Positions 1,854 through 48,506 of a stretch of 64,000 bases of DNA are shown piece after piece. The DNA is from Alphaproteobacteria bacterium (GTDB lineage Bacteria > Pseudomonadota > Alphaproteobacteria > GCA-2731375): the NCBI GenBank assembly GCA_021776235.1, contig JAJFGG010000038.1, positions 1 to 64,000 on the forward strand, in the 5' to 3' direction. Every line of letters begins with the position of its first letter. Position 1 is the first letter of the stretch. A model generated the notes under the pieces. The model was given only the letters and a program-made list of their open reading frames with translations. It was not told the DNA's origin and searched no databases. The position numbers were made by a program, and so were the translations under genes.

Positions 1854-1876
1854 ATCGGTTTTTGATCCTTTAGATT

Positions 1877-2149: not shown

Positions 2150-2232
2150 AACAGATCACTGTTGACCCGTTGCGGACTTTGGGTATCAGCTGTTGTTCGC
2201 CAAGGCTCGGCCACCTTTTTGGCCTCATTTGT

Positions 2233-3150: not shown

Positions 3151-3232
3151 CAGCCTGTCGCTCCGTCATGTTTTGCCGCCATGGGATATTGTTCCTTTGC
3201 GAAGGGGTTCGTCAAATTTTGCCTAGAGCCGG

Positions 3233-3949: not shown

Positions 3950-3967
3950 TTTCGTATCTCCAAAATT

Positions 3968-4006
3968 TGTATTCTTAATAAATACATTGACTTTTATATA
4001 AATACA
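3968..4006. promoter_or_regulatory. candidate IclR operator
   Basis: In the divergent intergenic region, TGTATT (3968-3973) and AATACA (3981-3986) form an inverted repeat, and ATAAATACA occurs twice (3978-3986 and 3998-4006), exactly 20 bp or two helical turns apart. This AT-rich stretch would cover the promoters of both the regulator and the catabolic operon. Binding by the adjacent IclR protein is inferred. Confidence 0.45.
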
Positions 4007-4074
4007 ACAAAAATCTTCATCATTCGAACACTGGCGTATGAGCGGCCAGACGGGATGAAAGGAAGTGAACTGCA

Positions 4075-4854
4075 ATGGAATACGAAACAATCCTGTATGA
4101 AGAGTCGGGGCCAGTGGGAACGATCACGCTGAACCGGCCAGACGACGGCAACATGTTCACCGTCCAGATGTGTCACGAGATCCGCGATTGCATAAACGAG
4201 ATGCGTCGGGAAACCCGGACGCGAGTGTTGGTCATCACCGGCGCCGGCGATCGCTTCTTCTGCATCGGCGGTCGAAAGGAGGGGATGGAAGACACCAAAC
4301 TCTATGCCGGCGTGCTGCCCACACTCGAAATGTACGAAGCCATCGACCGCTTGCAAAAACCCGTCATCGCCAGCGTCAACGGCTATGCCGTCGGTGGCGG
4401 CAATGTGCTGCAGGTGGTTTGCGACATGACAATCGCCAAGGAAAGCGCAGTATTCCGCCAAGTTGGCCCGATGATGGGTTCGTTCGATGCAGGCTACGGC
4501 ACCTGGTACCTGGAAGACCTCGTTGGTAAGAAGCGCGCCAAGGAGATGTGGTTCTGCAATCAACGGCTTTCGGCCCAGGAAGCACTCGATATCGGGCTCG
4601 TCAATCGGGTCGTACCGGACGAACAGCTGGCGGACAAGACGCGAGAATTTGCCCTGGAAGTCGCTGATCGCGGCGCCTTCGCCCTGGCCTCCATCAAGGG
4701 TGCCTTCAACGCTCGGCATGGCGGCGTTGGCGGTTTGGCCCGTGTTGCGCACGATCTACTGTTACCGCAATACCTTCGTTCCGCAGAGGCAAAGGAACTC
4801 AGCAAGGCCTTTGCCGAGAAGCGGCCGCCTGAAGCTGATCTGTTCGGACAATGA
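4075..4854 (+). CDS. BadI/MenB-type crotonase, probable ring-cleaving ketoacyl-CoA hydrolase
   Basis: A 259-aa crotonase-fold protein. The oxyanion-hole segments are FFCIGGRKEG and NGYAVGGGNVLQ. The two hydratase glutamates are absent. Instead it has the MenB/BadI signature GSFDAGYGTWYLEDLVGKK, with the conserved Ser and Asp. MenB makes dihydroxynaphthoyl-CoA; BadI opens 2-ketocyclohexanecarboxyl-CoA to pimelyl-CoA. No other menaquinone genes are near, while a CoA ligase, a BadH-like dehydrogenase and an AliB-like acyl-CoA dehydrogenase follow, so a BadI-like ring hydrolase is the better call. It is the first gene of the operon, with seven bases to the ligase start. Confidence 0.82.
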   Translation: MEYETILYEESGPVGTITLNRPDDGNMFTVQMCHEIRDCINEMRRETRTRVLVITGAGDRFFCIGGRKEGMEDTKLYAGVLPTLEMYEAIDRLQKPVIASVNGYAVGGGNVLQVVCDMTIAKESAVFRQVGPMMGSFDAGYGTWYLEDLVGKKRAKEMWFCNQRLSAQEALDIGLVNRVVPDEQLADKTREFALEVADRGAFALASIKGAFNARHGGVGGLARVAHDLLLPQYLRSAEAKELSKAFAEKRPPEADLFGQ

Positions 4855-4861
4855 GGCAACG

Positions 4862-6484
4862 ATGAAACCATTCCTCACATTGCACCGTCCCGACCTAGCT
4901 CAACGGTATTATGCGGCCGATCTTTGGCAGGACCAGTCCTTCTACGACCTTTTGGTTCATCACGCCGAAACAGCCCCGGACCGTCAGGCGCTGAAGGATG
5001 GGCGCCATTCCTTAAGCTGGTCCGAGCTGCGCGACTGGACGGATGCGGTCGCGGCAAAGTTCTCGGATACTGGTTTGGTTGCGGGCGATCGGGTCTCGAT
5101 CTGGATGTCCAATCGCGCTGAGGCCATCGTTGCCTTCCTTGCTTGTTCACGGCAGGGCCTTGCCTGTAACCCCTCGCTTCACAGGACCTACACCTGCCAG
5201 GAAATCGTCACCTTGGTGGACCGGCTCGAGGCAGGCATCCTAATAACGGAACCCGATTGGGGTGCAGATCAGGGCGAAATTGACCGGGAGGCAATATTCG
5301 GCGGCGTTACCACTTTAAAGGCCGTCCTGGAGCCAAATTCATTACCACGGACGGCAGCCGGACCGTTACCGCCGACGGAGAGTGATCCTGACGGCGTCGG
5401 TTATCTCGCCTTTACGTCCGGTACGACCGGCGCGCCCAAATGCGTAATGCATTCGGCCAATACACTGCTCGCCAACGCACGGAATATGGTTAGTGATTGG
5501 GACATTAGCGGCGACACATGCTTGCTCTCCCTCAGCCCGCTTTCACACCACATCGCCTGGGTTGCCGTTGGGCAATGGTTACTGTCGGGCTGTTTGTTGA
5601 TTACGGATGATGCGCCAAAGGGCGTCGGTCAACTCGATTGGTTGCTCGATAATGACCCAACCTACGTCATGGGTGTTCCGACTCACGCTATGGATATCTT
5701 GAGCGAACTGAAGGCGCGCAGGTTGCCGTCCTTAGGCCGGGTCGAGACCTTCTATATGGCTGGAAGTCCGATTCCGCAGGTTGTTGCAGAAACTCTGGTC
5801 GACCTGGGCATCAAACCGCAGAACGTCTATGGCATGACGGAAAACTCATCACACCAGTACACCCACCCGGGCGACGGTGTGGAAATCTGGACGCGGACAT
5901 GTGGGCGCGGCGGCCCTGCTTATGAAGTTCGAATCTTCGATCAGGAGGATGCGAACAAGCGCCTGGAGGCTGGTAAAGTCGGTCAGATTGGTGGCCGTGG
6001 CGCAGCCCTGATGCTCGGCTATTTCGCGAACCAGGAAGCCACCGACAAAAGTTTCAATGACGACGGCTGGTTTCTTTCCGGCGATCTCGGCTCTCTGGAT
6101 GATGACGGCAATCTCAAGATAGAAGGGCGCCTCAAGGATATCGTCATCCGCGGCGGCCACAACATCCACCCGGCCCATATTGAAGACTATGCGTTGCGGC
6201 ACGCCGGCATCGAAAAAGCAGCTGCCTTTGCTGTGCCCGATGATCGTCTAGGCGAACGAGTCTGCTTGGCTATCCAAGGAACACCGGAACCTGCCGAAGT
6301 CCTCGACCACCTCGACGCACAAGGCCTCTCGAAATATGACATGCCTGAATACTTCCTCAGGGTCGAGGCATTTCCTCTGACGGCGAGCGGAAAAATCCTT
6401 AAACGCGACCTCTCCGACATGGTTCGAGGCGGCGAACTCAGTATCGAACCGGTTCGATTTACTGCCAATAAGGAGCGCGCCTGA
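4862..6484 (+). CDS. acyl-CoA synthetase, cyclohexanecarboxylate-CoA ligase-like
   Basis: A 540-aa AMP-forming ligase that would activate a carboxylic acid to its CoA thioester. Motifs in order: phosphate loop YLAFTSGTTGAPKCVMHS, YGMTENSS, the hinge SGDLG, IEGRLKDIVIRGGHNIHP and the C-terminal lysine motif PLTASGKILKRD. The ATG at 4862 follows GAGG and sits just after the crotonase stop; an in-frame extension back to 4487 lies entirely within that gene and is rejected. By context it resembles AliA, which activates cyclohexane carboxylate. The exact acid cannot be told from sequence. Its stop overlaps the next start by one base, so coupled translation is likely. Confidence 0.88.
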   Translation: MKPFLTLHRPDLAQRYYAADLWQDQSFYDLLVHHAETAPDRQALKDGRHSLSWSELRDWTDAVAAKFSDTGLVAGDRVSIWMSNRAEAIVAFLACSRQGLACNPSLHRTYTCQEIVTLVDRLEAGILITEPDWGADQGEIDREAIFGGVTTLKAVLEPNSLPRTAAGPLPPTESDPDGVGYLAFTSGTTGAPKCVMHSANTLLANARNMVSDWDISGDTCLLSLSPLSHHIAWVAVGQWLLSGCLLITDDAPKGVGQLDWLLDNDPTYVMGVPTHAMDILSELKARRLPSLGRVETFYMAGSPIPQVVAETLVDLGIKPQNVYGMTENSSHQYTHPGDGVEIWTRTCGRGGPAYEVRIFDQEDANKRLEAGKVGQIGGRGAALMLGYFANQEATDKSFNDDGWFLSGDLGSLDDDGNLKIEGRLKDIVIRGGHNIHPAHIEDYALRHAGIEKAAAFAVPDDRLGERVCLAIQGTPEPAEVLDHLDAQGLSKYDMPEYFLRVEAFPLTASGKILKRDLSDMVRGGELSIEPVRFTANKERA

Positions 6485-7191
6485 TGTCTGCAGATCAAAT
6501 CATCGTCACTGGCGCCAGCCGGGGAATTGGCGCGGCCATTGCGGTCGAACTCGCTGATCGGGGTTTTTCCATTGTCGGCCTATCGCGGGGCGGCCAAACC
6601 GCAGCTGGGCGCGGCATAGCCTGCGACATCACCGACGAAAATGCGGTACGCCGGGCGTTTGAAGACATTGCGGCAACGGGCCCTATCGCTGGCCTGGTGA
6701 ATAACGCCGGACTACATTTGTCGAGCCCATCCGCAGAGCTTCCGAGCGATGAGTACGAACAGGTCATGACGCTGAACGCGACGTCAGTAATGATCGCCTC
6801 AAGAGAGGCTTACCCCCATTTAAAGGCCGCCGGCGGCGGAACCATCGTCAACATGGGCTCATTTTTCGACAAGCTTGGGGTGCCGTCGAACCTGGCCTAT
6901 TGCGCCTCGAAGGCGGCTGTGGCGGCGATAACCCGATGCCTGGCGGTCGAATGGGCCGGCGACAAAATTCAGGTGCTTAACATCGCACCAGGATATGTCG
7001 CGACAGATCTTAATCGCGATTTTCTTGCCAGGGATCGCGTGCAAGCCTACCTGCAGCAGCGAATTCCGACAGGCGAACCAGGCAAGGCCGCTGATGTGGC
7101 TCAACTGGTCGGCGCGCTGCTCGCGGCCAAGATTCCGTTTTTGACCGGCGAGACTATCTATCTCGACGGCGGCCAAGGGATGAACCACTGA
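6484..7191 (+). CDS. short-chain dehydrogenase, BadH-like
   Basis: A 235-aa classical SDR. The nucleotide loop is TGASRGIG, followed by NNAG, the catalytic Ser region NMGSFFD, YCASK with Tyr and Lys, and the late PGYVATDL segment. In the R. palustris alicyclic pathway the SDR BadH oxidises 2-hydroxycyclohexanecarboxyl-CoA to the ketone that BadI hydrolyses. The same role fits here because the gene lies between ligase and acyl-CoA dehydrogenase and shares one-base stop/start overlaps with both. FabG-like activity is the alternative, but no fatty acid synthesis genes are near. Confidence 0.87.
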   Translation: MSADQIIVTGASRGIGAAIAVELADRGFSIVGLSRGGQTAAGRGIACDITDENAVRRAFEDIAATGPIAGLVNNAGLHLSSPSAELPSDEYEQVMTLNATSVMIASREAYPHLKAAGGGTIVNMGSFFDKLGVPSNLAYCASKAAVAAITRCLAVEWAGDKIQVLNIAPGYVATDLNRDFLARDRVQAYLQQRIPTGEPGKAADVAQLVGALLAAKIPFLTGETIYLDGGQGMNH

Positions 7192-8357
7192 TGAATATAT
7201 TTGAGCAGATGGCCCAGCAACGGGACTGGGCCGAAGAGGAGCGCATCATTCTCGATCAGGTGCAGCGGGTCTGCGATGACGTTGTTGCGCCCAATGCTGA
7301 ACGATATGACAAGGCAGCAGAGTTCCCTTGGGAGAGCATCACCGCCCTGAACGAGCTTGGCCTTAATGCGATCTTTGTGCCGGAAGCCTATGGCGGCATG
7401 CCGACCAGCTACGCGCTCTACCTGGAGTGCGTCAAAATGATCGCGGAAGCCTGCGCCTCCACCGGCATCATTTATGCCACCAGTTTCCATGGCATGAAGC
7501 CGATCATCGACTTCGGCACAGAGGATCAGCGCCGGCGTCTGTTGCCCCGTATCGCCGAAGGTGGACTGGGTGCGCTGGCAATTACCGAGACGTCCGCCGG
7601 TTCCGATGCGACGGGCATGAAGACCCGCTTTACGCCTGACGGTGACGACATCATCGTCGATGGTTCAAAGGTCTTCATATCAAATGGCGACGTTGCGGAT
7701 CTACTTCTGGTGTTCGGCAAATGGTCTGAGATTGATGACGATCGCCAAGCAATTTCGGTGCTGGTGTTGGAAAAAGACACGCCTGGCTTCGAAATCATCC
7801 GCAAGGAAGACAAAATGGGCCACCGCGCCTCTTCCACCGCCGCGCTGAGCTTTGCCGGTTGCCGCGTGCCGCGCAGCAATCTGCTGGGCAATCCCGGTGA
7901 TGGCCTAAACATACTTTTGGCCTCGCTCAACAAGTCGCGCCCGAGCATTGCCGCCCATGCCTTTGGGATTGCACGGGCAGCCTTCAGGGACATGATCACC
8001 TATACCAACGAACGGGTGCAATCGGGCCGCGCGGTGATCGATTTTCAGGGCAACCAGTTCATGATCGCCGACCTGGCCAGCGAAATGGCGATGGTGGAGA
8101 ACTGGATCGACTATGTCGCCGGCCTGGTGGACGGCGGCGCTGCAGACTTTGGCCTGGAAGCTTCCATCGCAAAAATGCGCGCCTCGGATTTGGCGATGCG
8201 CATGGCGACGGACGCCGTTCAGATGCATGGCGGCTATGGCTACTGCACGGACTACCGCGCCGAACGCCTGATGCGGGACGCCAAGATCACGCAAATCTGG
8301 GAAGGCACCAATCAGGTGCACCGTCAACTCATTGGCAGGAGCTTTCGAACGCAATGA
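7191..8357 (+). CDS. acyl-CoA dehydrogenase, AliB-like by context
   Basis: A 388-aa FAD flavoprotein. It shows the helical N-domain, the substrate and FAD segment LGALAITETSAGSDATGMKT, the middle beta-domain, and a C-domain ending in MHGGYGYCTDYRAERLMRD. The likely catalytic base is Glu371 in IWEGTNQVH, the position used by short- and medium-chain enzymes. It would introduce the ring or chain double bond next to the thioester, as AliB does for cyclohexanecarboxyl-CoA. Start and stop overlap the neighbouring genes (one and four bases), so it is part of the same operon. Electrons would pass to ETF, whose genes are not in the window. Confidence 0.9.
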   Translation: MNIFEQMAQQRDWAEEERIILDQVQRVCDDVVAPNAERYDKAAEFPWESITALNELGLNAIFVPEAYGGMPTSYALYLECVKMIAEACASTGIIYATSFHGMKPIIDFGTEDQRRRLLPRIAEGGLGALAITETSAGSDATGMKTRFTPDGDDIIVDGSKVFISNGDVADLLLVFGKWSEIDDDRQAISVLVLEKDTPGFEIIRKEDKMGHRASSTAALSFAGCRVPRSNLLGNPGDGLNILLASLNKSRPSIAAHAFGIARAAFRDMITYTNERVQSGRAVIDFQGNQFMIADLASEMAMVENWIDYVAGLVDGGAADFGLEASIAKMRASDLAMRMATDAVQMHGGYGYCTDYRAERLMRDAKITQIWEGTNQVHRQLIGRSFRTQ

Positions 8358-9232
8358 CCAGGATCCGAAAAGTTGGAGTGTGCGGCGCTGCCGGCACCAT
8401 GGGCGCCGGCATAGCCATCGTGGCGGCCCGGGCTGGCTTCGAAACCGTGGCTTATGATTTGAGCAGCGATGCTCTGAGCCAGGCGGCGGAAAACACAGCC
8501 GGTTTCTTCGAGAAATCCGTCGCGCGCGGGAAGATGTCCAAAAGCGATCGTGATGCTGTTTTGGCAAGGTTAACCAGCACGAACGACTTGGCTGACCTGG
8601 GCAACTGCGATCTGGTCATCGAGGCTGTGTACGAGGACCCGAAGGTAAAACAGGATCTACTCGCAACCCTCGACGCCACGTGCGCGGACCACACGATACT
8701 TGCCTCCAACACATCCACGCTGTCGATCACGGAAATCGCCTCCGGTTGCAGTCGCCAGGACCGGGTCGTGGGCATGCATTTTTGCCTGCCGGCTCAGCTC
8801 ATGAGGTTGATCGAGATGTCACCCGGCGTGAACACATCGGATGAAACGTTTCAGGCAGCCTGGGCCTGGACCGAGGCCGTCGGCCAGGTCCCCGTCCGCA
8901 CCCAGGACAAGCCGGGTTTCATCCTCAACGCGCTGCTGGTGCCGTTTAACAACGAGGCGATCCGAGCGGTAGAGGCCGGCGTGGCCGAACCAGCCGATAT
9001 CGATCACGCCATCAAGGCTGGTCTGGGTTACAAGATGGGCCCGCTCGAACTCATCGATCTCGTCGGCCTCGATACCCAAGTCCGCCTATGCGAGGCCTTT
9101 TACCCGATCACTCTTGACCCACGGGCAGCCGCACCGGCGCTTTTGCGCCGCATGGTTGCCGCCGGACGCCTTGGCCGTAAATCGGGCAGCGGCTTCTACA
9201 ACTACGATGACCAAGCCATGTACGGGAGCTAG
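8354..9232 (+). CDS. 3-hydroxyacyl-CoA dehydrogenase, N-terminal part of a PaaH-like pair
   Basis: A 292-aa NAD-dependent L-3-hydroxyacyl-CoA dehydrogenase. Its Rossmann domain begins VGVCGAAGTMGAGIA, followed by LVIEAVYED and LASNTSTLSI. The catalytic His is in VVGMHFCLPAQLM. The C-terminal dimerisation domain ends GRKSGSGFYNYD. Length matches HbdA/FadB2-type single-unit enzymes. The next gene encodes what looks like the remaining linker and second C-terminal domain of longer PaaH-type enzymes, suggesting that a protein of about 505 aa has been split into two. It would act on the ring-opened hydroxyacyl-CoA or on the cyclic hydroxy thioester. Confidence 0.88.
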   Translation: MTRIRKVGVCGAAGTMGAGIAIVAARAGFETVAYDLSSDALSQAAENTAGFFEKSVARGKMSKSDRDAVLARLTSTNDLADLGNCDLVIEAVYEDPKVKQDLLATLDATCADHTILASNTSTLSITEIASGCSRQDRVVGMHFCLPAQLMRLIEMSPGVNTSDETFQAAWAWTEAVGQVPVRTQDKPGFILNALLVPFNNEAIRAVEAGVAEPADIDHAIKAGLGYKMGPLELIDLVGLDTQVRLCEAFYPITLDPRAAAPALLRRMVAAGRLGRKSGSGFYNYDDQAMYGS

Positions 9233-9237
9233 GCGAG

Positions 9238-9879
9238 ATGAGCTACATGATTGTAAATAGCGGCGGAAGCCGTTCTTTCCCCACAGGCGATGCTTTCCTC
9301 GAACACGCTGCGGCGGACGCCGACATTGTGCTCTACCTTGGCGGCGCCAAAATGCGGGCCGACGAGCAAAAAACAGCGATCCTAGTTGAGTTGGGCGGCG
9401 AATGCCTCGGCGTCCATACCGGTGAAGGCGAGGGAACGAATGCGGGCAAGGAAGGCTCCAACATCCTGGGCTTCAACCGCTACCGTAACGGCCATGATGA
9501 ACCCTCAAATCTGATCGAGCTGGTGCGCCAACCGCGTACGCACGAAACTGCGTTGCGCGCCGCCAAGACATTGTTCACGACTGCCGGGCTCGAGGTCGCG
9601 GTTTGCTCCGACCAGGCGGGACGCATTATCGACCGCCTGGTACGGCCAAAGTATAACGCCGCGCTGCGCTTCCTTGATGAAGGTCTGGCCAGCGCCAAGG
9701 ATATGGATCTGACCTGTCGGATGGGCCTGGGCTACCCTGACGGCCCGATCGAACGGGTCTGTCGGGGCGGACTGGCCCATCACCATGACGTCACCGAAGC
9801 CCTGTTCCGGATCTACGGAACCGCTGGTTACGCACCGGCGCGCCGCGCCGTGGTCGCCAAGCAAAGGGCTCCACAATAA
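9238..9879 (+). CDS. stand-alone 3-hydroxyacyl-CoA dehydrogenase C-terminal domain protein
   Basis: A 213-aa protein with no nucleotide-binding loop. Residues 1-100 (DADIVLYLGGAKMR) resemble the linker region of long PaaH-type dehydrogenases. Residues about 115-205 match a 3HCDH C-terminal domain, with GRIIDRLVRPKYNAALRFL and GLGYPDGPIERV. It starts five bases after the preceding dehydrogenase, with its own ATG and an AGGCGAG ribosome site, so it is a separate cistron rather than a simple frameshift. It probably associates with the 292-aa protein to rebuild a two-C-domain enzyme. Its catalytic contribution is unknown. Confidence 0.72.
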   Translation: MSYMIVNSGGSRSFPTGDAFLEHAAADADIVLYLGGAKMRADEQKTAILVELGGECLGVHTGEGEGTNAGKEGSNILGFNRYRNGHDEPSNLIELVRQPRTHETALRAAKTLFTTAGLEVAVCSDQAGRIIDRLVRPKYNAALRFLDEGLASAKDMDLTCRMGLGYPDGPIERVCRGGLAHHHDVTEALFRIYGTAGYAPARRAVVAKQRAPQ

Positions 9880-9916
9880 TGACCAAAATTACACTGAAAC
9901 CAAAGGGAGAAACACC

Positions 9917-10261
9917 ATGATTAAACGTATGTCACTATTGCGTCGCAAATCGGGTCTGACGGAGGAGGAGTTCGACCGGCATTGGCGGGACATACACGGA
10001 CCGCTCGTAGCCGAACTGCCCGGATTGCGTCATTACACGCAAAACAGCCCAATTGGCAAAGTCGAAGGCCCCGCCCAAATTCCGGTGGCGGATGCCAACG
10101 TTCAGGTCGACGGCATCACCGAGCTTTATTTCGATAGCTTCGAAGCTATGGAGGCTGCCTATACCTCGGAACAAGGCAAGTTGTGTTTAGACGACGGCGA
10201 GCTGTTCATCGGATCAGCCACCACGTTTACCGTCACCGAACGCATCATCAAGGATTTTTGA
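9917..10261 (+). CDS. EthD-domain protein
   Basis: A 114-aa dimeric alpha-beta barrel protein. The ATG at 9917 has AAAGGGAG just upstream; a longer in-frame reading from 9785 overlaps the previous gene and is rejected. The hallmark is FDRHWRDIHGPLVAELPGLRHY, followed by a central strand with ITELYFDSFEAM. EthD was named from an ether-degradation cluster; such small proteins occur in many catabolic operons, often with uncertain roles as monooxygenase-like or carrier proteins. It continues the catabolic operon after the split dehydrogenase with a 37-bp gap. No catalytic function is claimed. Confidence 0.78.
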   Translation: MIKRMSLLRRKSGLTEEEFDRHWRDIHGPLVAELPGLRHYTQNSPIGKVEGPAQIPVADANVQVDGITELYFDSFEAMEAAYTSEQGKLCLDDGELFIGSATTFTVTERIIKDF

Positions 10262-10337
10262 CCGTCCTGTATGTTGGCCCGGTTCGATGTAGCCGGGCCA
10301 GGCGAAAGGACGACGTTTGCTGCAAGGGAGCAATATC

Positions 10338-11333
10338 ATGAAAGCCGTATGCGTTCGCGAATTCGGCCCCTACCACGGGGCCAAGGTCGAAGATCTCGAC
10401 GATCAAATACCGGGTCCGGACGAAGTTGTCATCGGCGTCCGGGCGGCTGAGGCCAATTATCCCGATATCCTGGTCATGCAGGGCGACTATCAGATCAAGC
10501 CGCCCTTGCCGTTTTCTCCTGGAAAGGCCGCAGCCGGCGTCGTCGAAGCCGTCGGCTCCGCTGTGACGGCTCTAAAACCCGGCGATCACGTCGCAGCGCA
10601 GGTCGAACATGGCGCCTATGCCGAAAAACTGAAGGCGAGCGCGGCAACATGCTATCCCATGCCGGAAGATATGCCGTTTACCGACGCTGCGGCGCTGGGG
10701 CTGGTCTACCAAACCTCGCATTTCGCCTTGGTGGAACGAGCCGGCCTGGCGGCGGGTGAGACCGTCCTGGTTCTGGGCGCCTCGGGCGGCATCGGCATCG
10801 CCAGTGTCCAACTGGCTAAGGCGCTGGGCGCGAACCGGGTCATCGCAGGGGTTCTTGGCGCCGAGAATGTTGCAGTGGCCAGCACAGCCGGTGCGGATCA
10901 CGTCATCGACCTGGCGATGGATGACCTGCGCGATGGGCTACGGGACGCCATCAACGACATCACAGGAGGCCTGGGCGTCGATGTCGTGATCGACCCGGTT
11001 GGCGGTGCGACCAATGCCGCCGCCCTGCGGGCCATGGCGTGGCGTGGGCGCATGGTCATTATCGGATTTGCCTCAGGCGAAATCCCGACCATCAAGTCCA
11101 ACTACCTTCTGGTGAAAAACATCGCCGTGAGCGGCCTGCAATGGTCCGACTACCGGGAGCGCGAACCGGCTTGGGTGGCAAACGTTCAACAAGAACTTTT
11201 CGATCTGTATCAGGCTGGAAAACTTACCCCACACATATCGAAGCGTTTCCCACTGGAAGGGTTTTCCGAAGCGCTTGATTTGTTAAAAGCCGGGAAGGTG
11301 CAAGGCAAGGTCATCCTGACGCTTGACGTCTGA
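10338..11333 (+). CDS. NADPH:quinone oxidoreductase-type medium-chain reductase
   Basis: A 331-aa zinc-free medium-chain dehydrogenase/reductase. The ATG at 10338 has AAGGGAG upstream. The N-terminal GroES-like domain has PFSPGKAAAGVVEAVG, where zinc enzymes would carry GHE. The Rossmann domain opens LVLGASGGIGIASVQLAKA, and DVVIDPVGG follows. It lacks catalytic-zinc ligands, so it belongs with QorA, zeta-crystallin and enoyl reductases rather than alcohol dehydrogenases. In this cluster it may reduce an enone or enoyl-CoA, or a quinone by-product. It follows the EthD gene after 76 bp and may have its own transcription or continue the operon. Confidence 0.85.
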   Translation: MKAVCVREFGPYHGAKVEDLDDQIPGPDEVVIGVRAAEANYPDILVMQGDYQIKPPLPFSPGKAAAGVVEAVGSAVTALKPGDHVAAQVEHGAYAEKLKASAATCYPMPEDMPFTDAAALGLVYQTSHFALVERAGLAAGETVLVLGASGGIGIASVQLAKALGANRVIAGVLGAENVAVASTAGADHVIDLAMDDLRDGLRDAINDITGGLGVDVVIDPVGGATNAAALRAMAWRGRMVIIGFASGEIPTIKSNYLLVKNIAVSGLQWSDYREREPAWVANVQQELFDLYQAGKLTPHISKRFPLEGFSEALDLLKAGKVQGKVILTLDV

Positions 11334-11411
11334 GCCTCACCCGACCGGCGCGAACACAAATATCGGATTGAAACGGAAGGCATCGCCTTTCGTACGGCTA
11401 AAGGATAGAAG

Positions 11412-12470
11412 ATGAGCAACAAAACGAAAACCGCGCTGATCGCCGGCGCGACCGGGGTCGTCGGGCGAAATCTCCTCAAGTACGTTCTGTCACGCGGGGA
11501 CTGGAACGTGATTACGTTGTCGCGACGTCGTCCGGATCTCGAGGGTGCGTACACCCATATCCCCGTCGATCTATTGGATCCCGACGATTGCCGGGAAAAG
11601 CTGGGTGGACTTCAGGACATCACCCATGTGTTTTTTGCCGCCTACATCGAACGCCCGACATGGGCTGAAACCGTCCCGCCGAACGTCGATATTCTGCGCA
11701 ATTTGATGGATGCGGTCGAACCGGTGGCGGCCAACCTTCAACATGTGAATCTAATGCATGGCACCAAGTGGTATGGCAATCATCTCGGGCCGTTCAAGAC
11801 GCCGGCGCAGGAAGATGATCCGCGTCACATGCCGCCCAATTTCTACTACGACCAACAAGACCTCGTTGCCGAAAGGGCAAAAGGGAAGGCTTGGACCTGG
11901 TCAACCGCCCGGCCCCATGGCATCTGCGGTTTCGCGATCGGTAATCCGATGAATTTGAGCATGGTCGTGTCGGTCTACGCGACCATCTCTAAAGCATTGG
12001 GTCTGCCTCTCCGTCACCCCGGATCTGTTGCCAATGCCAACGCTCTTTACCAAGTTACCGACACCTCGCACTTGGCCAAGTCGGCTGTCTGGATGTCGAC
12101 CGAACCGGGCTGCGCCAACCAACCCTTTAACATCACCAATGGCGATATCTTCCGTTGGGCCGATATGTGGCCCGCATTCGCCAAATATTTCGGAATGGAT
12201 TTAGCGCCGCCGCAGCAAATCAATTTGGAGCACATGATGGCGGACAAGGGCAATCTCTGGACGGACATCGTCGAGCAACATGGTTTGCAAGATATCCCTT
12301 ATGACCAGCTGGTGTCATGGGCCTATGGGGATTTCGTCTTTACGCCGGAGTACGACATTATTTCCTCGATGACCAAAGCACGGCAGTTTGGATTCCACGA
12401 TATCGTCGATTCCCGGCAAATGTTTTTGTCCTTGTTCGATGATTTGAGACAGAACCGCATAATTCCCTGA
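11412..12470 (+). CDS. PRISE-type SDR enone reductase (progesterone 5-beta-reductase/iridoid synthase-like)
   Basis: A 352-aa atypical SDR. GATGVVG at 12-18 binds NADPH. Instead of the usual YxxxK, it has the two motifs typical of the PRISE group: MHGTKWYGNHLGPF, with the catalytic-type Lys119, and NFYYDQQD, with Tyr145/Tyr146. PRISE enzymes reduce the C=C of activated enones such as progesterone, 8-oxogeranial or cyclohexenone. Length is close to plant and bacterial homologues. It sits in the middle of the island's catabolic genes, next to EthD-like and SDR genes. An enone reduction in degradation of a cyclic ketone or terpenoid is the natural inference; the substrate is unknown. Confidence 0.82.
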   Translation: MSNKTKTALIAGATGVVGRNLLKYVLSRGDWNVITLSRRRPDLEGAYTHIPVDLLDPDDCREKLGGLQDITHVFFAAYIERPTWAETVPPNVDILRNLMDAVEPVAANLQHVNLMHGTKWYGNHLGPFKTPAQEDDPRHMPPNFYYDQQDLVAERAKGKAWTWSTARPHGICGFAIGNPMNLSMVVSVYATISKALGLPLRHPGSVANANALYQVTDTSHLAKSAVWMSTEPGCANQPFNITNGDIFRWADMWPAFAKYFGMDLAPPQQINLEHMMADKGNLWTDIVEQHGLQDIPYDQLVSWAYGDFVFTPEYDIISSMTKARQFGFHDIVDSRQMFLSLFDDLRQNRIIP

Positions 12471-12559
12471 AGGTCGTCTATTGCACATCAGGCAGAGATG
12501 CATCTCTTGCTAGCGATTTATCGGGGTAGAAATTTGAATGAACAAGGAGGGATGAAGTC

Positions 12560-12865
12560 ATGACAGCATATCTCATTGTACGGGCCGTAGTGCCTCAGGA
12601 AGACCGCGCTGATTTCGATAGCTGGTATGAGCGAGAGCACCTACCAGACGCCAAGCGGGCATTCGGCGCGAAGTCCGCATTCCGTGGCTGGACGTTCGAA
12701 GACGATAGTCTTCACTATGCAATGTACGAATTTGCGAGTTTGGAGATCGCGCGTTCTACTCTGGATTCCGAAGCCCTTAAAGCGATGGTGGCGGAGTTCG
12801 ATCGAACTTGGCTGGGCCGTGTGACCCGTAGCCGGGAAATTATTGAAATCGCCCAGCGGCTATGA
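12560..12865 (+). CDS. small EthD-like dimeric alpha-beta barrel protein
   Basis: A 101-aa protein preceded by AAGGAGGGATG, a strong ribosome site. Its main feature is FDSWYEREHLPDAKRAFGA near residues 18-36, of the pattern FxxWYxxEHxP. The same pattern appears twice in the 215-aa protein at 13819-14466. The fold is probably a ferredoxin-like alpha-beta barrel that dimerises. It lies 89 bp after the PRISE gene and 60 bp before an SDR. It may bind or process a pathway intermediate, but no catalytic assignment is made. Confidence 0.72.
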   Translation: MTAYLIVRAVVPQEDRADFDSWYEREHLPDAKRAFGAKSAFRGWTFEDDSLHYAMYEFASLEIARSTLDSEALKAMVAEFDRTWLGRVTRSREIIEIAQRL

Positions 12866-12925
12866 CGCCATAGGTCGGTGGTCAGACATCCGCTTCCAAT
12901 CTCATGAAATCAAGGAGACCGGCAA

Positions 12926-13660
12926 ATGACAAAATTGCAGGGTAAAGTCGCTCTAGTCACCGGTGCCGGCAGCGGTATCGGTCGGGCAACGGCAATTCGA
13001 TTGAGCGCGGACGACGCAAAGGTCATCGCGACAGATATTACCATTGATGTTGATGAGATTGATGGGGTTGAGTTTATCAAGCATGACGTCCAGGAAGAAG
13101 GCGCTTGGGAGGATCTCATGGCGTCAATCGAGCGAAATCACGGGCGTTTGGATATTCTGGTTAATAACGCGGGCATTCTGCGAGAGGCGCCAATTGAGGA
13201 GACGTCCTTCGAAATGTGGAGCAGCGTTTTATCCACCAATCTCACCGGAACGTTCTTTGGCTGCAAACATGCAGTGCCATTGTTGGCGCAATCGGAGGGC
13301 GGCGCTATTGTCAATGTTTCTTCTATTGATGCTCTAAGCGGCAGCTTTCATCATGCAGCCTACGCGGCATCCAAGGGAGGCGTCGCGGCCCTCACACGCG
13401 CTGCCGCTATGGAACTGGCGGAACGTGGCATTCGTGTCAACGCCGTCTGTCCCGGATCGGTCGAAACGCCGATGGCCGAAGCGATGTTCGCAGCCAGCGA
13501 AGACCCGGAACTGGCGGAGCGGCGCCGCGAGGTGCATCCCCTCGGCCGCATCTCCACGCCGGAAGAACAAGCAGACGCGATTGTCTTTCTTTGCGGACCC
13601 GACGCAGCTTTTATCACCGGTGCCGTATTGCCCGTCGACGGCGGTCGGGCCATTCGCTGA
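12926..13660 (+). CDS. short-chain dehydrogenase/reductase
   Basis: A 244-aa classical SDR: TGAGSGIGRATA loop, NNAGIL, NVSSIDALSGS with the catalytic Ser, YAASKGG with Tyr and Lys, then VCPGSVETPMAEAM and the C-terminal DGGRAIR. The FASTA-independent cofactor hint is the acidic residue at the end of strand 2 (IATDITID), which favours NAD(H). AAGGAGACCGG lies upstream of the ATG. It would oxidise or reduce an alcohol/ketone pair in the island pathway and is distinct from the BadH-like SDR at 6484. Substrate unknown. Confidence 0.87.
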   Translation: MTKLQGKVALVTGAGSGIGRATAIRLSADDAKVIATDITIDVDEIDGVEFIKHDVQEEGAWEDLMASIERNHGRLDILVNNAGILREAPIEETSFEMWSSVLSTNLTGTFFGCKHAVPLLAQSEGGAIVNVSSIDALSGSFHHAAYAASKGGVAALTRAAAMELAERGIRVNAVCPGSVETPMAEAMFAASEDPELAERRREVHPLGRISTPEEQADAIVFLCGPDAAFITGAVLPVDGGRAIR

Positions 13661-13818
13661 TGGAGATCGCCGGTGACAAAATCTCTGTTCACCACGGGGC
13701 TTTCTGCGTGACCGCTTTACTCTGAGCTGTGGGCTTGGTTAGCGACACGGCCAACAACCACTGTCTTTTCCGGCGTAGGGTAAACGGATAGGGTCAGTGA
13801 AATTATAAGGAGGATAGC

Positions 13819-14466
13819 ATGGCCAAAGGCCTGCTCGCAGCCGCATTTGATTTCTCGAACGCGCATAGTGACGAATTCCACGATTGGTATGATCTGGAGC
13901 ATATTCCCGAGCGCCAGGCCGTTCCCGGTTTTGGCGCCTCCGAACGCTGGATCAGCGTCGAGAAGCCGACCATAGCGGTAGCGACCTACGATCTCGACAC
14001 GCTTGATGTGTTGCAAAGCGAAAGCTACCAATCCGTTGCTCATGAGAACATCACGGTCTGGTCTAAACGGGTCACCACCATGTGTGATTATTTACTGCGA
14101 TTCGAGGGCAGCCAAATAACGCCGGGTGAAGCCATCGCGCCAGAGGGCGCCGGCGGTATGTTGCTCAATGCCATGAATGTCACGGCCGAGGCCGAAGCGG
14201 ATTTTAATGCCTGGTATGATGAGGAGCATTTGCCGGCGCTTTTGGCCGTACCCGGCACCCTGGCGGCCCGGCGCTACCGCTCGGGCGAGGATCCGCAGGG
14301 CAAGCGCAGTCATCGCTATCTGGCGATTTACCACCTCACTTCGCCGGAGGTAACACGGAGCGCTGCCTGGAAAGCCGCCGTTGACACCCCATGGAGCGAT
14401 CGGATGCGACCGCATTTCCGGGACCGAATGCGCCTCCTGACACGGCGCTATGTCCGCAACACCTAG
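13819..14466 (+). CDS. tandem EthD-like protein
   Basis: A 215-aa protein built of two alpha-beta barrel halves. The first half has FHDWYDLEHIPERQAVPGF near residue 20, the second FNAWYDEEHLPALLAVPGT near residue 135. Each matches the FxxWYxxEHxP motif of the 101-aa protein at 12560, so it probably arose by duplication and fusion and folds as an intramolecular dimer. AAGGAGGATAGC precedes the ATG. The conserved Trp, Tyr, Glu and His could line a ligand pocket. It sits between an SDR and a cupin gene in the island. Function unknown; a role in substrate handling is inferred from context. Confidence 0.75.
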   Translation: MAKGLLAAAFDFSNAHSDEFHDWYDLEHIPERQAVPGFGASERWISVEKPTIAVATYDLDTLDVLQSESYQSVAHENITVWSKRVTTMCDYLLRFEGSQITPGEAIAPEGAGGMLLNAMNVTAEAEADFNAWYDEEHLPALLAVPGTLAARRYRSGEDPQGKRSHRYLAIYHLTSPEVTRSAAWKAAVDTPWSDRMRPHFRDRMRLLTRRYVRNT

Positions 14467-14633
14467 CCGCGCTGTCCAACGTTCCGGAATAACACCGGTA
14501 TTTCCCGGAGCTCATCGCTTCACGGGCGATAGGCGGGCATCGAAAAGACATAGGCCGCCATCCTAGCTGCTATATGGTTAGGTTGATTACTCTGTCCCTA
14601 GGGTGTGAATAACGACTCACGGAGCGCAATTGG

Positions 14634-15284
14634 ATGAAGATGGAACTAAGGCTACATGAAGACACGCCTTTTGCTTCGAACACATGGCACCTCGGTCCGG
14701 GCGTGCCGCGCGCGATCTACGTGTCTGCCGGGCAGGTGACGATCAATGGCACCGTGTTGGAGCAGGACGACGGAATTGTTTCGTCAGAAGAATTGACCAT
14801 CGTCGCGGGTGGTCAAGGCGCGACCCTATGGCGCTGGGAGGTCACACCAGAGTCGGCTGCCGTCGCGGCTCTTGCTGGGCGCGGCACCATGCGTTTGGCG
14901 GCGCCAATTTACGCCGCTGCAATTTCTGACAGTCTTCTCATGCGGCTGGACAGCGTTGCGTTCCCGCCTGGAGGGTGCGCACTTCTCCACACCCACCAAG
15001 GGCCGGGAATTCGTTGCCTACGGGAAGGTAGCATCCGTATAGACACTGAGGGACGTTCAGCCTCCTATGGTCCTGGCGGCGCCTGGTTCGAGGCCGGGCC
15101 AGAGCCAGTCTTCGCCCAGGCGGCTCAAGATCAATCCAGCCGCTTCATTCGCGCCATGGTGTTGCCGCGCGCGTTGATGGGCGTTTCATCCATTCACTAC
15201 GTGAATGAGGTTGATCGGGGGAAGCCAAAATCACAAAGCTATCGGGTCTGGTCGGAAGCCGCTATCGAGTTTCCCGAAGAATAA
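14634..15284 (+). CDS. cupin-fold protein
   Basis: A 216-aa protein with what looks like two cupin-type halves. The C-terminal half carries metal-site-like residues in FPPGGCALLHTHQGPGIRCL, followed by GSIRIDTEG and YGPGGAWFEAGPEPVFA; the His pair resembles cupin motif 1. The N-terminal half (about 1-90) has strand-rich sequence without clear metal ligands. No signal peptide is present. Cupins of this type include small dioxygenases, isomerases and binding proteins. It lies in the catabolic island upstream of the broken SDR. The fold is supported moderately; the reaction is unknown. Confidence 0.65.
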   Translation: MKMELRLHEDTPFASNTWHLGPGVPRAIYVSAGQVTINGTVLEQDDGIVSSEELTIVAGGQGATLWRWEVTPESAAVAALAGRGTMRLAAPIYAAAISDSLLMRLDSVAFPPGGCALLHTHQGPGIRCLREGSIRIDTEGRSASYGPGGAWFEAGPEPVFAQAAQDQSSRFIRAMVLPRALMGVSSIHYVNEVDRGKPKSQSYRVWSEAAIEFPEE

Positions 15285-15298
15285 TTCAGGAGGATATC

Positions 15299-15694
15299 AT
15301 GCGGTGTGAAGGAATGGTTGTGGTCGTCACGGGCGGCGCCATGGGAATTGGCCGCGCCATCGTTGAAGGTTTCCTTGACCAGGATGCCTCTGTTGTCTTA
15401 GCGGACAAGTCCGGCGCCAAGGAGGCCGCTGAGTCATTGGCGCAACAGGGTCGGCACGTTGTTGGAGTTGCTTGCGATGTCTCAAGCGCCAAAGAAACCC
15501 AGGCCATGGCTCAGGCCGCTCTTAATGAGTTTGGCCGGATCGATGTCCTCGTAAACAACGCAGGCATTTATTCTTCCTTGACACCAAAACCGTTCGAGGA
15601 ATTGGAGGCCGAAGATTGGCGGCAGGTACCTAGCACGCTTGCGGGACTCAACAGCATTTGTCGGACGTCACCTGTGGATTTTGTCTCTTTTTAG
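15299..15694 (+). pseudogene. truncated short-chain dehydrogenase
   Basis: An SDR that begins normally with a TCAGGAGGATATC ribosome site, TGGAMGIGRAI loop and VLVNNAGIYSS, but loses homology after EEDWRQ-like residues near base 15626. It ends at 131 aa with an unrelated tail, where a complete SDR would run to about 250 aa. The catalytic Ser and Tyr-Lys region is missing, so it cannot be an active dehydrogenase. The break lies about 200 bp before the tRNA attachment scar. This suggests that the 3' half was lost when the island edge formed or was rearranged. Confidence 0.8.
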
Positions 15695-15822
15695 ACTCAC
15701 AAATCGCAATCATAAGGGACGGTGCAGTTTTCGTAGCGTTTTCAACGGTCTAGAAATGCTTGTCTCTGCCTAAAACGGGCAGCGCTCTCGTAACCTATTG
15801 ATTTTACGTTGGAGTCTCGCAG

Positions 15823-15867
15823 CTCCGAAGGCAGAGGTCGCACGTTCGAATCGTGCCGGGTGCGCCA
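15823..15867 (+). other. tRNA-Arg(CCG) 3' fragment, probable integration scar (att site)
   Basis: Forty-five bases match the 3' part of an alphaproteobacterial tRNA-Arg: anticodon loop CTCCGAA, 3' anticodon stem GGCAG, T arm GCACG-TTCGAAT-CGTGC with perfect pairing, acceptor strand CGGGTGC, discriminator G and encoded CCA. The bases upstream do not pair as the 5' anticodon stem (CTGCC would be needed), so this is not an intact gene. Site-specific integrases leave such 3' copies at the far end of islands inserted into tRNA genes. Its orientation puts the island on the left. Confidence 0.82.
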
Positions 15868-16165
15868 ATTCCTTTGAAATTGATGGGTTTTGGTAAGAAC
15901 CCGGGCAGATTTACGGCGCGAATCCGCCCGGCGATGAACGATTAAAGTGCAGCGTCACCGAAATCGTCACCGAAATCCGGCCCAACCTCCATTGATCTAT
16001 TGGTTGGATCGTCTTCAGAGCATTGATTAGAGCATTGAGAATCGCCATTGGTTCGCCTGCGGGTGCCACATACGAAAGGCGATACAATCTGTCAGTGAAC
16101 CAGTCGGGCCATTCGTCCTCGGCAGTGGCAGTGCTTGCGGCACGCGATGATAACGGCTCAGCCGG
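15868..16165. other. intergenic region right of the attachment scar
   Basis: About 300 bases without a credible gene. A short direct repeat CGTCACCGAAAT occurs twice at about 15954-15975, and there is a near-repeat of GAGCATTGA. No integrase remnant was recognised in either strand. It ends just after the stop of the RTX gene on the minus strand. Confidence 0.5.
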
Positions 16166-19100
16166 TTAGATAATAAAGTCGTCCTGATGCAAATTGGCGA
16201 TTTGAACGCCGATGAGCGTCACCGTCCCTTCGTTGCTGAAGGTAATCGTTGTGTCCGTGGTGCCGACGTTATCGTCGGCCAAGGCCAGCAGATCTCCCAG
16301 GTTACCCAGGTTGAGCGCGGTAACATCGATCCTGTCCTCCGACCCGGCACCCGCCGAGAAGTCGGTGATCGTATCGTGGCCGTTGTATTCGCCGAACACA
16401 AACAAGTCATCGCCAATGCCGCCGGTGTATCTGTCATTGTCGGACTCGATCACGACAATGGCGCCATCGCCATCATCATGCTTGTCATGGCCTTTGCCTT
16501 TGTCATGACCCTTGCCGCCGCCATGACCACCATGGCCGTGATCGTCGTCGTGGTCGTGTTTGTCGTGGCCCTTGCCTTTGCCTTTGTCATGGCCCTTGCC
16601 GCCACCATGACCACCATGGCCACCATGGCCGTGATCGTCGTCATGGTCGTGTTTGTCGTGTCCCTTGCCTTTGTCATGGCCCTTTTCTTTGCCATGGCCC
16701 TTGCCATGGTGGTGGCCGTGATGTCCATGGCCGCCGGCGTCGATCTCGACCACCGCGCCCGCATCGATGATGGTGTCGTTGCCGCCGTCGCCGGTGACCT
16801 CGTCGTCGCCGGTGCGGGCGTCGATCAGGTCATTACCGCCATTGCCGCGGATCAGGTTGCCGCCGCCATCGCCAAGCAGTTCGTCGTCAATTCTCGAGCC
16901 GGTAATATCCTCTATGTTGGCCAGGGTATCGACGCCGCCTTCTCCGTCGTGCGCCACGCCCGCCGCCAGGTCGACGAAGACACCGGCGCCGGCTGTATTG
17001 AAATCAACCCGGTCCACGCCGCCGCCGCCATCAATGAAGTCATCGCCCTGATCGCCACGAAACTGTTCGTCGGCGGCGCTGCCAAGCAGTGTGTCATCGT
17101 AATGGGAGCCCCATGCACGGCTCACGCCGGTGAAGGTATCCAGGCCGATATTCGCGACATCCCCGCCAGCGCTGCTATACGATTCGCCATTGATCAGATC
17201 GACAGTGACGGCGGCGTCGGCACTGCTGAAGCGCACCCGTGTCGTGCCGTTACCGGTGATCGTGTCGTCGCCGCCCATGCCCTCGATGTCGGCCAGGTCA
17301 AAATAGGAACTCTGGAAACTGCCATCGACGGTGAAGGTGTCGGCGAAATCGCTGCCCTGGATGAACTCGACACCGGTCAAGGTATCGGTGCCGACACCCG
17401 CGCCGATGACCGTCGACACGACGCTCAGGGTCGCGGTGATCCCGCCGGTGGCGTCGGTATATATGGCCCTGTCGTAATCGAACGGGCCTTCGCCGTTGCC
17501 GCCGGTATAGATGTTGTCATCCGTGCCCGAGCCGCCAATCAGGGTGTCGTTGCCGGCACCGCCCTGCAGAGTGTTGACGCCGTCACCGCCTTCGATAACG
17601 TCATCTCCGCCGCCGCCCACGATACGGTCATCACCACCGCCGCCCTGCAGCAGGTCGTCGCCGCCCTCGCCGCGGATGAAATTGGCGCCGTCATCGCCGA
17701 TCAGCGTATCGCCATTGTTGCTGCCACGGATATTTTCAATGTTGAAAAGGGTATCAACATTGCCCCAGCCGTCGTCGTAGGTGAAACCGGCGGCCAGATT
17801 GACGGTAACCGCGCCAGGTGTGCTGTAGCGGACCGTGTCGGCGCCTGCGCCGCCGTCGATCCAGTCGTCGCCACCGCGCATGCGGAATTCGTCGTCGCCG
17901 GCGCTTCCCAACGCATAATCCTCGTGATTGGTGCCGCGCAGGCTGAAAATACCGGCACCGATGGTATCGGTGCCGCCCCAGCCATCCAATACCGTATTGG
18001 CGCCAACGGTGGTGGTCGAAGGGTCGCCGAAGGTGAACGCTGCCGACGACAGGTTGGCGAATATGCCGTCCGGCGAAGCATGATACGAAATCCGTGTCAG
18101 TCCATTACCCGAAATGGTGTCATCACCCGCCATGCCCTGGAATTCGGTGAATGTTCCGAAAGAGCCGTTGAAGCCGCCATCAGCCGACATAACGTCGTTG
18201 CCGCTGGAACCGTCAATCCGTTCGACACTGGTCAATGAGTCTGTATTGCCCCATCTGTCAGTGACCGTACTGACGGCGCCCAAGTGCGCAACAATGCTGC
18301 TGCTCGTTGTCGGTATGTCGTCATACTGATCGTTCCGGTAACTGGCGATGTCATAGCCGCCGCCGCCATCGATATCATCGTTGCCGCTGCCGCCCTGGAA
18401 CCAATCGTCGCCGCCGGCACCGGACATCGTGTCGTCGCCACCATTGCCCTGCAGGCTATTTGCTCCGCCGTCACCAACGAGTGTATCGCCCAGGCTGGAG
18501 CCCTGGATATCTTCAAAGCCGGAAAGCGTATCCGTATCGCCCCAGTTGTCCGTGGCAAGGCCCGCGGCAAGGTCCACCGTGACACCCTGAGTGACCGGGA
18601 TGTCGTCCCAGTAGGCGTTCTCATGATAGCGGACGGCGTCCCGCCCGGATCCACCTGTCAAATCGTCGCCGCCCGAGCCGCCGACGACGGTGTCATTATC
18701 GGCGCCGCCGTCGATGGTATCGGCACCGCTAGCGCCGGACAGGTAGTCGTTACCGCCACGGCCGTCGATGTCATCGCCGCCATCGCCGCCAAACAGTTGG
18801 TTGTCTAGATTGTCACCAAGAATGGTGTCATTGAGCTGTGAGCCTCCCACATTCTCGATGCTGACAAGGGTATCGGTATACCCCCAGCCATCAGTGGCGG
18901 TGCCCGCCAGCAGGTCAACGTAGGCGCCCTGAGTGATGGCGCCGGCGCCATCGAAACCGTCGTCAAAATACTCGGCCGAATCCCAGTTCGCGCCGCCATC
19001 AAGAATGTCGTTGCCGCTGCCGCCGTACAGGCTGTCGTTGCCCGCCAAGCCATACAGTTCATCGTTGCCCATGCGGCCGAAGGCGTAGTTATCTCCGGTC

Positions 19101-19702
19101 GTGAGCGTGATGATATCGTCGCCATAGCTGCCGTGGGCAGCTTCGAAATTGAGGACCGTATCATTGAACAGCACGTTTCCGAACGCGTCCAGTTCCTGGG
19201 CGGTACCGGCGTTAAGATCGATAATCACGCCTTGCACGCCAGGGTCTTCATAGAACAGAACGTCGAAGCCCCCCGCCGCATCGACCCAATCGTTTCCGGC
19301 ACCGGGCCAGAACCAGTTATAGCCGCCGTCGCCGATCAAAATGTCGTCATGGCTTGAACCGGTGACCCCTTCAATGCTGACAAGGGTATCAAAGGTGCCC
19401 CAACCATCGCTAGCGGTCCCCGCCGCCAGATCTACGGTCACGGCGCTTGGGCTGTCGCTGTAGTCTGCAGTATCGACAAACTGAACGTTCGTACCGCCGT
19501 CAAGCAGGTCATTGCCCGGTCCGCCGTTCAAATAGTCGTCACCAGCTTCGCCATACAGATCATCATTTCCCATACCGCCCGACAGTCCGTCGTCCCCAGC
19601 GTCGGCGAAAAGAACGTCATCGCCATCCTGGCCGTCGAGCCAGTCGTCGCCCGTCGTGCCAAACAAAACATCGTTACCCGGTGTACCGTTGATGATCGCC
19701 AT
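16166..19702 (-). CDS. large RTX calcium-binding repeat protein, probable type I secreted
   Basis: A 1178-aa acidic protein made of repeated hemolysin-type nonapeptides (GGxGxDxLx), for example GGMGNDDLYGEAGDD near the start, interleaved with blocks of the type AVTVDLAAGTASDGWGTFDTL and SIEGVTGSSHDD that recur about seven times. No enzymatic domain is seen. Residues 990-1080 form a His/Lys/Gly/Asp-rich insert. The C-terminus (YTGGIGDDLFVFGEYNGHD ... HQDDFII) has the hydrophobic, acidic ending of type I secretion substrates; there is no N-terminal signal peptide. No ABC or HlyD genes are nearby, so export would use a transporter encoded elsewhere. A surface or matrix calcium-binding role is inferred. 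Confidence 0.88.
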   Translation of the reverse strand: MAIINGTPGNDVLFGTTGDDWLDGQDGDDVLFADAGDDGLSGGMGNDDLYGEAGDDYLNGGPGNDLLDGGTNVQFVDTADYSDSPSAVTVDLAAGTASDGWGTFDTLVSIEGVTGSSHDDILIGDGGYNWFWPGAGNDWVDAAGGFDVLFYEDPGVQGVIIDLNAGTAQELDAFGNVLFNDTVLNFEAAHGSYGDDIITLTTGDNYAFGRMGNDELYGLAGNDSLYGGSGNDILDGGANWDSAEYFDDGFDGAGAITQGAYVDLLAGTATDGWGYTDTLVSIENVGGSQLNDTILGDNLDNQLFGGDGGDDIDGRGGNDYLSGASGADTIDGGADNDTVVGGSGGDDLTGGSGRDAVRYHENAYWDDIPVTQGVTVDLAAGLATDNWGDTDTLSGFEDIQGSSLGDTLVGDGGANSLQGNGGDDTMSGAGGDDWFQGGSGNDDIDGGGGYDIASYRNDQYDDIPTTSSSIVAHLGAVSTVTDRWGNTDSLTSVERIDGSSGNDVMSADGGFNGSFGTFTEFQGMAGDDTISGNGLTRISYHASPDGIFANLSSAAFTFGDPSTTTVGANTVLDGWGGTDTIGAGIFSLRGTNHEDYALGSAGDDEFRMRGGDDWIDGGAGADTVRYSTPGAVTVNLAAGFTYDDGWGNVDTLFNIENIRGSNNGDTLIGDDGANFIRGEGGDDLLQGGGGDDRIVGGGGDDVIEGGDGVNTLQGGAGNDTLIGGSGTDDNIYTGGNGEGPFDYDRAIYTDATGGITATLSVVSTVIGAGVGTDTLTGVEFIQGSDFADTFTVDGSFQSSYFDLADIEGMGGDDTITGNGTTRVRFSSADAAVTVDLINGESYSSAGGDVANIGLDTFTGVSRAWGSHYDDTLLGSAADEQFRGDQGDDFIDGGGGVDRVDFNTAGAGVFVDLAAGVAHDGEGGVDTLANIEDITGSRIDDELLGDGGGNLIRGNGGNDLIDARTGDDEVTGDGGNDTIIDAGAVVEIDAGGHGHHGHHHGKGHGKEKGHDKGKGHDKHDHDDDHGHGGHGGHGGGKGHDKGKGKGHDKHDHDDDHGHGGHGGGKGHDKGKGHDKHDDGDGAIVVIESDNDRYTGGIGDDLFVFGEYNGHDTITDFSAGAGSEDRIDVTALNLGNLGDLLALADDNVGTTDTTITFSNEGTVTLIGVQIANLHQDDFII
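16463..16738 (-). repeat. His/Lys/Gly/Asp-rich low-complexity repeat within the RTX gene
   Basis: This stretch encodes residues 990-1080 of the RTX protein. It opens with GHGHHGHHHGKGHGKEK and then repeats units such as GHDKGKGHDKHDHDDDHGHG two to three times, with nearly identical DNA. The composition suggests binding of zinc, nickel or copper, in contrast to the calcium sites of the flanking RTX repeats. Slippage at the repeated DNA could vary its length between strains. Confidence 0.8.
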
Positions 19703-23750: not shown

Positions 23751-23779
23751 GGGTCAAAGCCTCTGCTTGGATCAAAGAG

Positions 23780-23823
23780 TTAGAGCAACTCGTCTGCGTT
23801 CAAATGAACGCAGGTTGCTCTAA
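23780..23823. repeat. palindromic TTAGAGCA repeat unit
   Basis: A 44-bp near-perfect hairpin: outer arms TTAGAGCAAC and GTTGCTCTAA, inner arms CTGCGTTCA and TGAACGCAG around a two-base loop. The outer arm begins with the same TTAGAGCA word as the large element at 48333-48506. It lies in the leader of the receiver gene and could also act as a bidirectional terminator, although no long T run follows. Confidence 0.65.
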
Positions 23824-23932
23824 TGGTTAAAAAACCACAAAGATTATGACCAATACTGGTTAACGGCAGGTAAACGCCTGCATCCCGCCGCCTATGGGCC
23901 GGCGCGCATTCTGAAAAAGGGAATAGCCGCGG

Positions 23933-48336: not shown

Positions 48337-48506
48337 AGCATGTTGCGGCTATTCTGATTCATTTGATGTCGCGGCCAGGCCATTGGGGTCGGCGCGCGGC
48401 GCGGCGCGATGTGGGACATCGGGCAAGCCGCGCAACGCAGCCCAATGGCCTGGCTGCGCCACCGGAGGCCGGTCAAATGGTTCAGAAAAACCGCGACATG
48501 CTCTAA
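48333..48506. repeat. 174-bp palindromic element, TTAGAGCATG family
   Basis: Terminal arms of about 34 bp: TTAGAGCATGTTGCGGC... on the left and, inverted, TTAGAGCATGTCGCGGT... on the right. Inner arms CAGGCCATTGGG and CCCAATGGCCTG form another stem, and the apex CGATGTGGGACATCG is a small hairpin also seen in similar form in the element at 43862. No ORF is present. It fits a MITE-like or BIME-like repeat. It begins on the trmB stop codon and lies in the leader region of the rimP-nusA operon. Confidence 0.8.

Follow-up and report, generated by a model that had tools for sequence, protein, structure and literature searches.

The lone 3′ half of a tRNA gene at positions 15823-15867 of an alphaproteobacterial contig raises the question of which of its flanks held a mobile element. 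The window, i.e., the whole stretch of DNA that was analyzed, comprises bases 1-64000 of contig C106 (139,444 bp), from a draft genome of 6.36 Mb in 174 contigs. An earlier note on this DNA took the fragment as the right end of a genomic island that covers everything to its left. The features needed to judge this are the following (strand is given where one applies):

85-1038, plus strand: IS481-family transposase (NCBIfam NF033577, 327 bits)
1158-15284: catabolic cluster, accessory by its composition and by a cupin gene absent in 9/10 congeners
15299-15694, plus strand: cut-off SDR-family dehydrogenase, its family match stopping at about residue 110 (15629) where about 250 residues are usual
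15629-15822: low-G+C stretch (48%) of 194 bp from the broken SDR gene to the core, in which no arm-type repeat was found
15823-15867, plus strand: tRNA-Arg(CCG) 3′ fragment, tRNA positions 32-76, very probable attachment (att) core, 45/45 against the intact gene of congener G004
15868-15977, plus strand: sequence 3′ of the core, a putative element arm region, homologous (blastn) to the flank of the copy at 91251 on contig C132
15953-15977, plus strand: 13-bp direct repeat CGTCACCGAAATC, present twice, 12 bp apart, putative arm-type integrase sites (P′ arm)
31265-31300: start of the gene order common to five congeners (tsaB-rimI side), the order to its left being private to this genome

The fragment, CTCCGAAGGCAGAGGTCGCACGTTCGAATCGTGCCGGGTGCGCCA, runs from the anticodon loop (C-T-CCG-A-A) to the CCA end, through the 3′ anticodon strand (GGCAG), the variable loop (AGGTC), a perfectly paired T-arm (GCACG/CGTGC), the 3′ acceptor strand (CGGGTGC), and G73. 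All 45 bases are the same as in the intact tRNA-Arg(CCG) gene of G004, which bears out the earlier identification, while the next-best place on contig C106 (about 100,000 positions, both strands) reaches 26/45, equal to shuffled sequence. The loss of the 5′ half is likewise confirmed, since the window has no tRNA call by ARAGORN and the fragment scores 20.5 bits with the Rfam tRNA model, short of the gathering score of 29. A 3′ fragment of a tRNA gene, which Islander uses as a criterion for islands, is, thus, present at 15823-15867. Since crossover by a tyrosine recombinase in the anticodon loop leaves precisely such a fragment, this sequence is very probably an integrase attachment-site core.

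The tRNA-Arg(CCG) gene is an integration hotspot in the genus. In congeners G005 and G009, a tyrosine-integrase-like gene (named from its translation, not by family search) lies directly 3′ of the intact tRNA gene, and extra 3′ fragments lacking the 5′ half occur in G003, G005, and G010. Every fragment in this genome and the congeners either begins within tRNA positions 28-33 or is truncated by the end of its contig, and each is preceded by unrelated DNA. Fragments starting in the anticodon loop are the signature of integrases that cross over there (Islander, PMC4383910). Contigs often stop near the gene (0 to about 1.1 kb away in G001, G002, G003, G004, G005, G010, and G011), as expected of a strain-variable or repeated locus. 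The intact genes of the congeners have element-like or broken flanks and gene neighbors other than those in the window.

The earlier note expected the intact tRNA-Arg(CCG) gene and an integrase gene to the left. Neither turned up: the intact gene was not found in the draft assembly (core and 5′-half patterns, Rfam, ARAGORN), and no tyrosine integrase was found on contig C106, of which the assembled left side measures 15.8 kb only. The 5′-half pattern matched only genes for tRNA-Arg with the anticodons TCT, CCT, and ACG, which also set aside an intact gene interrupted by a group I intron or split in another way. The window genes use CGG codons often, and these should not be read by the Arg(ACG) tRNA; an intact tRNA-Arg(CCG) must, therefore, exist, and it probably sits in an assembly gap. 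Its locus could not be traced through the ABC-transporter neighbor conserved in congeners, which has no close homologue in this assembly. Integrases elsewhere in the genome were also considered as the responsible enzyme and rejected: those on C163, C17, and C102 look Xer-like on reading their translations, that on C59 is a remnant, and that on C145 adjoins tRNA-Sec. The latter, a 453-aa tyrosine integrase (G000:C145:31113-32644; L009, L088), starts about 100 bp from the tRNA gene and marks a probable island at selC.

Judging from its composition, the absence of the cupin gene in nine of ten congeners, and the cut-off SDR gene, the DNA left of the core looks accessory. The contig starts with TGTGAG at its first base, probably the end of the IS481 element, so that there is no assembled DNA to the left of this element, 15.8 kb from the core. 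The cluster encodes an IclR-like regulator, enoyl-CoA hydratase, acyl-CoA ligase, acyl-CoA dehydrogenase, 3-hydroxyacyl-CoA dehydrogenase, quinone reductase, SDRs, and a cupin-like protein (the IclR, hydratase, and hydroxyacyl-CoA dehydrogenase genes being named by reading translations). Among 13 blocks, that at 1200-15628 has the most deviant tetranucleotide composition (0.141), followed by a contig with a recombinase remnant (0.133), and its GC3 is 0.66 versus 0.72. The cupin-like gene, the sole left gene searched across congeners, occurs in one of ten (G006), in a different context, and it was not found in plasmids or viral contigs. G006, which shares the cupin only, was discarded as a carrier of the left cluster. 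The break in the SDR gene (about 15629) falls 194 bp before the core, and 15629-15822 may be where the left accessory region ends. Left of the core, no arm-type pair was found, the longest repeat there being 6 bp.

The right flank does not open directly onto conserved chromosome. The earlier note proposed comparing a related strain that lacks the island, but no empty-site strain was found among the congeners, and the backbone order shared with congeners resumes at about 31.26 kb rather than at 15.87 kb. Most congeners have close relatives of the genes at 20.5-27 kb, but on scattered contigs, and tetranucleotide composition at 16-31 kb is normal. A second core on the right, as the other end of an element, was sought over C106:1-100000, and none rose above the shuffled level. 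An ADH gene, of which the named neighbors are MAGs of marine alphaproteobacteria, was rejected as a synteny anchor, the gene being conserved and its own neighbors not. This flank also carries a complete 1178-aa RTX calcium-binding repeat protein (16166-19702), in which the region encoded around 16440-16720 is a long low-complexity stretch rich in His, Asp, and Lys, and a dispersed REP-like repeat, an intergenic sequence of about 55 bp (23772-23826) found at 90-98% identity in more than 12 other contigs of this genome and in congeners.

Two further copies of the core, both on the minus strand of C132 (C132:89386 and C132:91222), were returned with the window copy, the third place, by a pattern search of the whole assembly. 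The earlier note had missed both, one of which is homologous to about 110 bp following the window fragment. In this comparison (blastn), 15868-15977 and the flank of the copy at 91251 are 83% identical over the core and 36 bp beyond it, and 85% identical over a further 39 bp. The window repeat pair has its counterpart there, CACCGCAATC/CACCGTAATC, 11 bp apart at about +65. A 13-bp repeat was reached at 0.14% of random window positions, and one of at least 8 bp at 2.4% (spacing 9-14).

Similar pairs accompany the tRNA gene in related genomes. Of eight intact tRNA-Arg(CCG) genes in relatives, six have, 45-75 bp past the CCA, two direct copies of an 8-11-bp sequence with a spacing of exactly 11 bp, the repeated sequence differing in each genome; this repeat-pair argument is post hoc, and the window spacing is 12 bp versus 11 bp in the relatives. 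Downstream flanks of other tRNAs have a pair in 3/32 cases, two of these three being the same tRNA-Tyr locus counted twice. The pairs 3′ of tRNA-Arg(CCG) are read as putative arm-type integrase sites that lie inside the elements, on their tRNA side. A 10-bp direct repeat, AGGACACACC, 11 bp apart and 48 bp past tRNA-Thr(GGT), was also seen in L018 of this genome and is perhaps a further element end. Among IMG/VR contigs that contain the tRNA-Arg core, intact tRNA-Arg genes tend to have the pair downstream, and where an integrase-like gene lies 550-800 bp upstream of a fragment, the pair is mostly upstream too. A few cores have pairs on both sides and behave like attP or tandem junctions. As the counts are modest (downstream pair at the 8-bp threshold in 4/10 intact genes and 3/20 fragments), the side of the pair is a tendency, not a rule.

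The C132 copies at 91251 and 89415 enclose 1.8 kb, with repeat pairs on their inner sides, the second pair (CCCTTACA, twice) lying inside the far end. The two tRNA-Arg 3′ cores (G000:C132:89373-91251; L004 9374-11252) delimit a tiny island remnant that contains a broken nucleotide-cyclase-like gene and a methyltransferase-like gene. The core at 91251 is preceded by an ordinary TenA-like gene, without the tRNA 5′ half, and the remnant extends rightward from it. Because this core has the homologous arm and encloses 1.8 kb together with its partner, a core plus such an arm opens a remnant on its right in this genome. Apart from this, a sequence of about 140 bp in the window (48334-48471) is repeated in C132 in both orientations at 72-78% identity, constituting a dispersed repeat family.

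The best explanation, with about an even chance of being correct, is a decayed junction, with the end of an accessory region on its left and, on its right, the beginning of the left end of an older element that has mostly been lost. The core would be a relic from the time when a tyrosine recombinase integrated DNA at tRNA-Arg(CCG) by crossover in the anticodon loop. An older element B would have settled beside the tRNA, its left end (core and P′ arm with paired arm-type sites) remaining at 15823 to about 15977. A later element A, carrying the present left DNA and mobilized by an integrase acting at the 15823 core, would then have integrated at the regenerated tRNA. This sequence of events would give the order tRNA - A - core - P′(B), which makes the core a junction between the accessory region and the rump of B. 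B would have to be very short or decayed, the genes at 20.5-27 kb being ordinary for the genus. With no integrase on the contig, no intact tRNA in the assembly, no left pair, and no second right core in C106:1-100000, neither A nor B is delimited. These findings, and the 12-bp spacing of the window pair instead of 11 bp, count against this explanation.

Two other readings, each improbable to about the same degree, retain one side of the junction only. Firstly, the element may have lain on the right alone: a decayed element, with the core and P′ arm as its left end, would have reached a secondary, non-tRNA site by integration or by rearrangement, and the left cluster would be unrelated older DNA. 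The arm pair on the right, with none on the left, fits this, as does the homologous core on C132, which follows the TenA-like gene without a tRNA 5′ half and whose remnant runs right. Nevertheless, no second end was found on the right, and the deviant composition is that of the left side, not of 16-31 kb. Secondly, 15823-15867 may be the attR of a single island holding all of the left DNA, in which case the right DNA would be the original chromosome after the tRNA, and the repeats would be due to chance or terminator-like. The accessory character of the left block (composition, cupin) and the orientation of the fragment, which fits a displaced 3′ copy (Islander rule, PMC4383910), speak for this. 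However, the repeat pair and its C132 homologue match the tRNA-side arm-site pattern, congener gene order starts far to the right of the core, and neither integrase nor intact tRNA was found. The earlier claim, thus, stands as regards an att-type core at a hotspot with accessory DNA on its left, but as the right end of an island it tells at best half the story, having missed repeats on the right of the kind found on the tRNA side of the elements in relatives. A single island that fills the whole left part and ends at 15867 is plausible but unproven.

The remaining readings are weaker still. It is doubtful, if somewhat less so than what follows, that small integrative remnants, consisting of the tRNA-Arg(CCG) 3′ half and a conserved arm of about 110 bp, form a family scattered in this genome away from tRNA-Arg(CCG) itself, in the window and on C132; if true, such an element could settle at displaced tRNA fragments, making scars new integration sites. 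An assembly chimera, in which att sites from two strains or replicons were joined through the 45-bp tRNA repeat, is very unlikely: the draft has 174 contigs, is probably a MAG, and the contigs of relatives often break at tRNA-Arg(CCG), but a repeat of 45 bp is short to cause a false join when reads are paired, both flanks have plausible relic features, and the C132 cores show like arrangements in the genome. The least credible reading is a degenerate tRNA pseudogene formed by tandem or segmental duplication without an integrase, as suggested by the two other decayed copies (one with homologous downstream DNA), since every copy in the genus lacks precisely what lies 5′ of the anticodon loop and has an unrelated 5′ flank, and duplication would not pick that breakpoint.

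The decayed junction shares several features with known systems. As in Islander tRNA islands (PMC4383910) of sublocation A (anticodon-centered) with tyrosine integrases, there is a 3′ tDNA fragment, an anticodon-loop crossover, a hotspot, and, in congeners, an integrase beside the tRNA; unlike those islands, no intact tRNA, integrase, or second end was placed here and, hence, no island is delimited. Tandems at one tRNA gene are documented by Islander, 125 of 3919 islands being listed with two or more (PMC4383910). The window core, with putative element-type DNA on both sides, has the look of such a two-element junction, although each member of Islander arrays has its own integrase and none was found in the window. 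An arm-like pair flanks the core on the right side only, and the window is, therefore, not classed as a proven tandem. Tycheposons and other cargo islands occur at tRNA genes of marine bacteria and are mentioned in PMC10872708. The marine host and the metabolic cargo beside tRNA remnants recall tycheposons, whereas no recombinase or other tycheposon gene was seen.

Integration scars at tRNA genes are of a well-known kind, and all the main readings are variants of it. The window serves as a warning that a whole flank is not assignable to an island from a tRNA fragment alone. The side on which arm repeats lie can be used to ask which flank of a lone tRNA fragment held the element, even when the intact tRNA is unassembled. 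Overall, this locus documents a tRNA-Arg(CCG) integration hotspot in an uncultured marine alphaproteobacterial genus.
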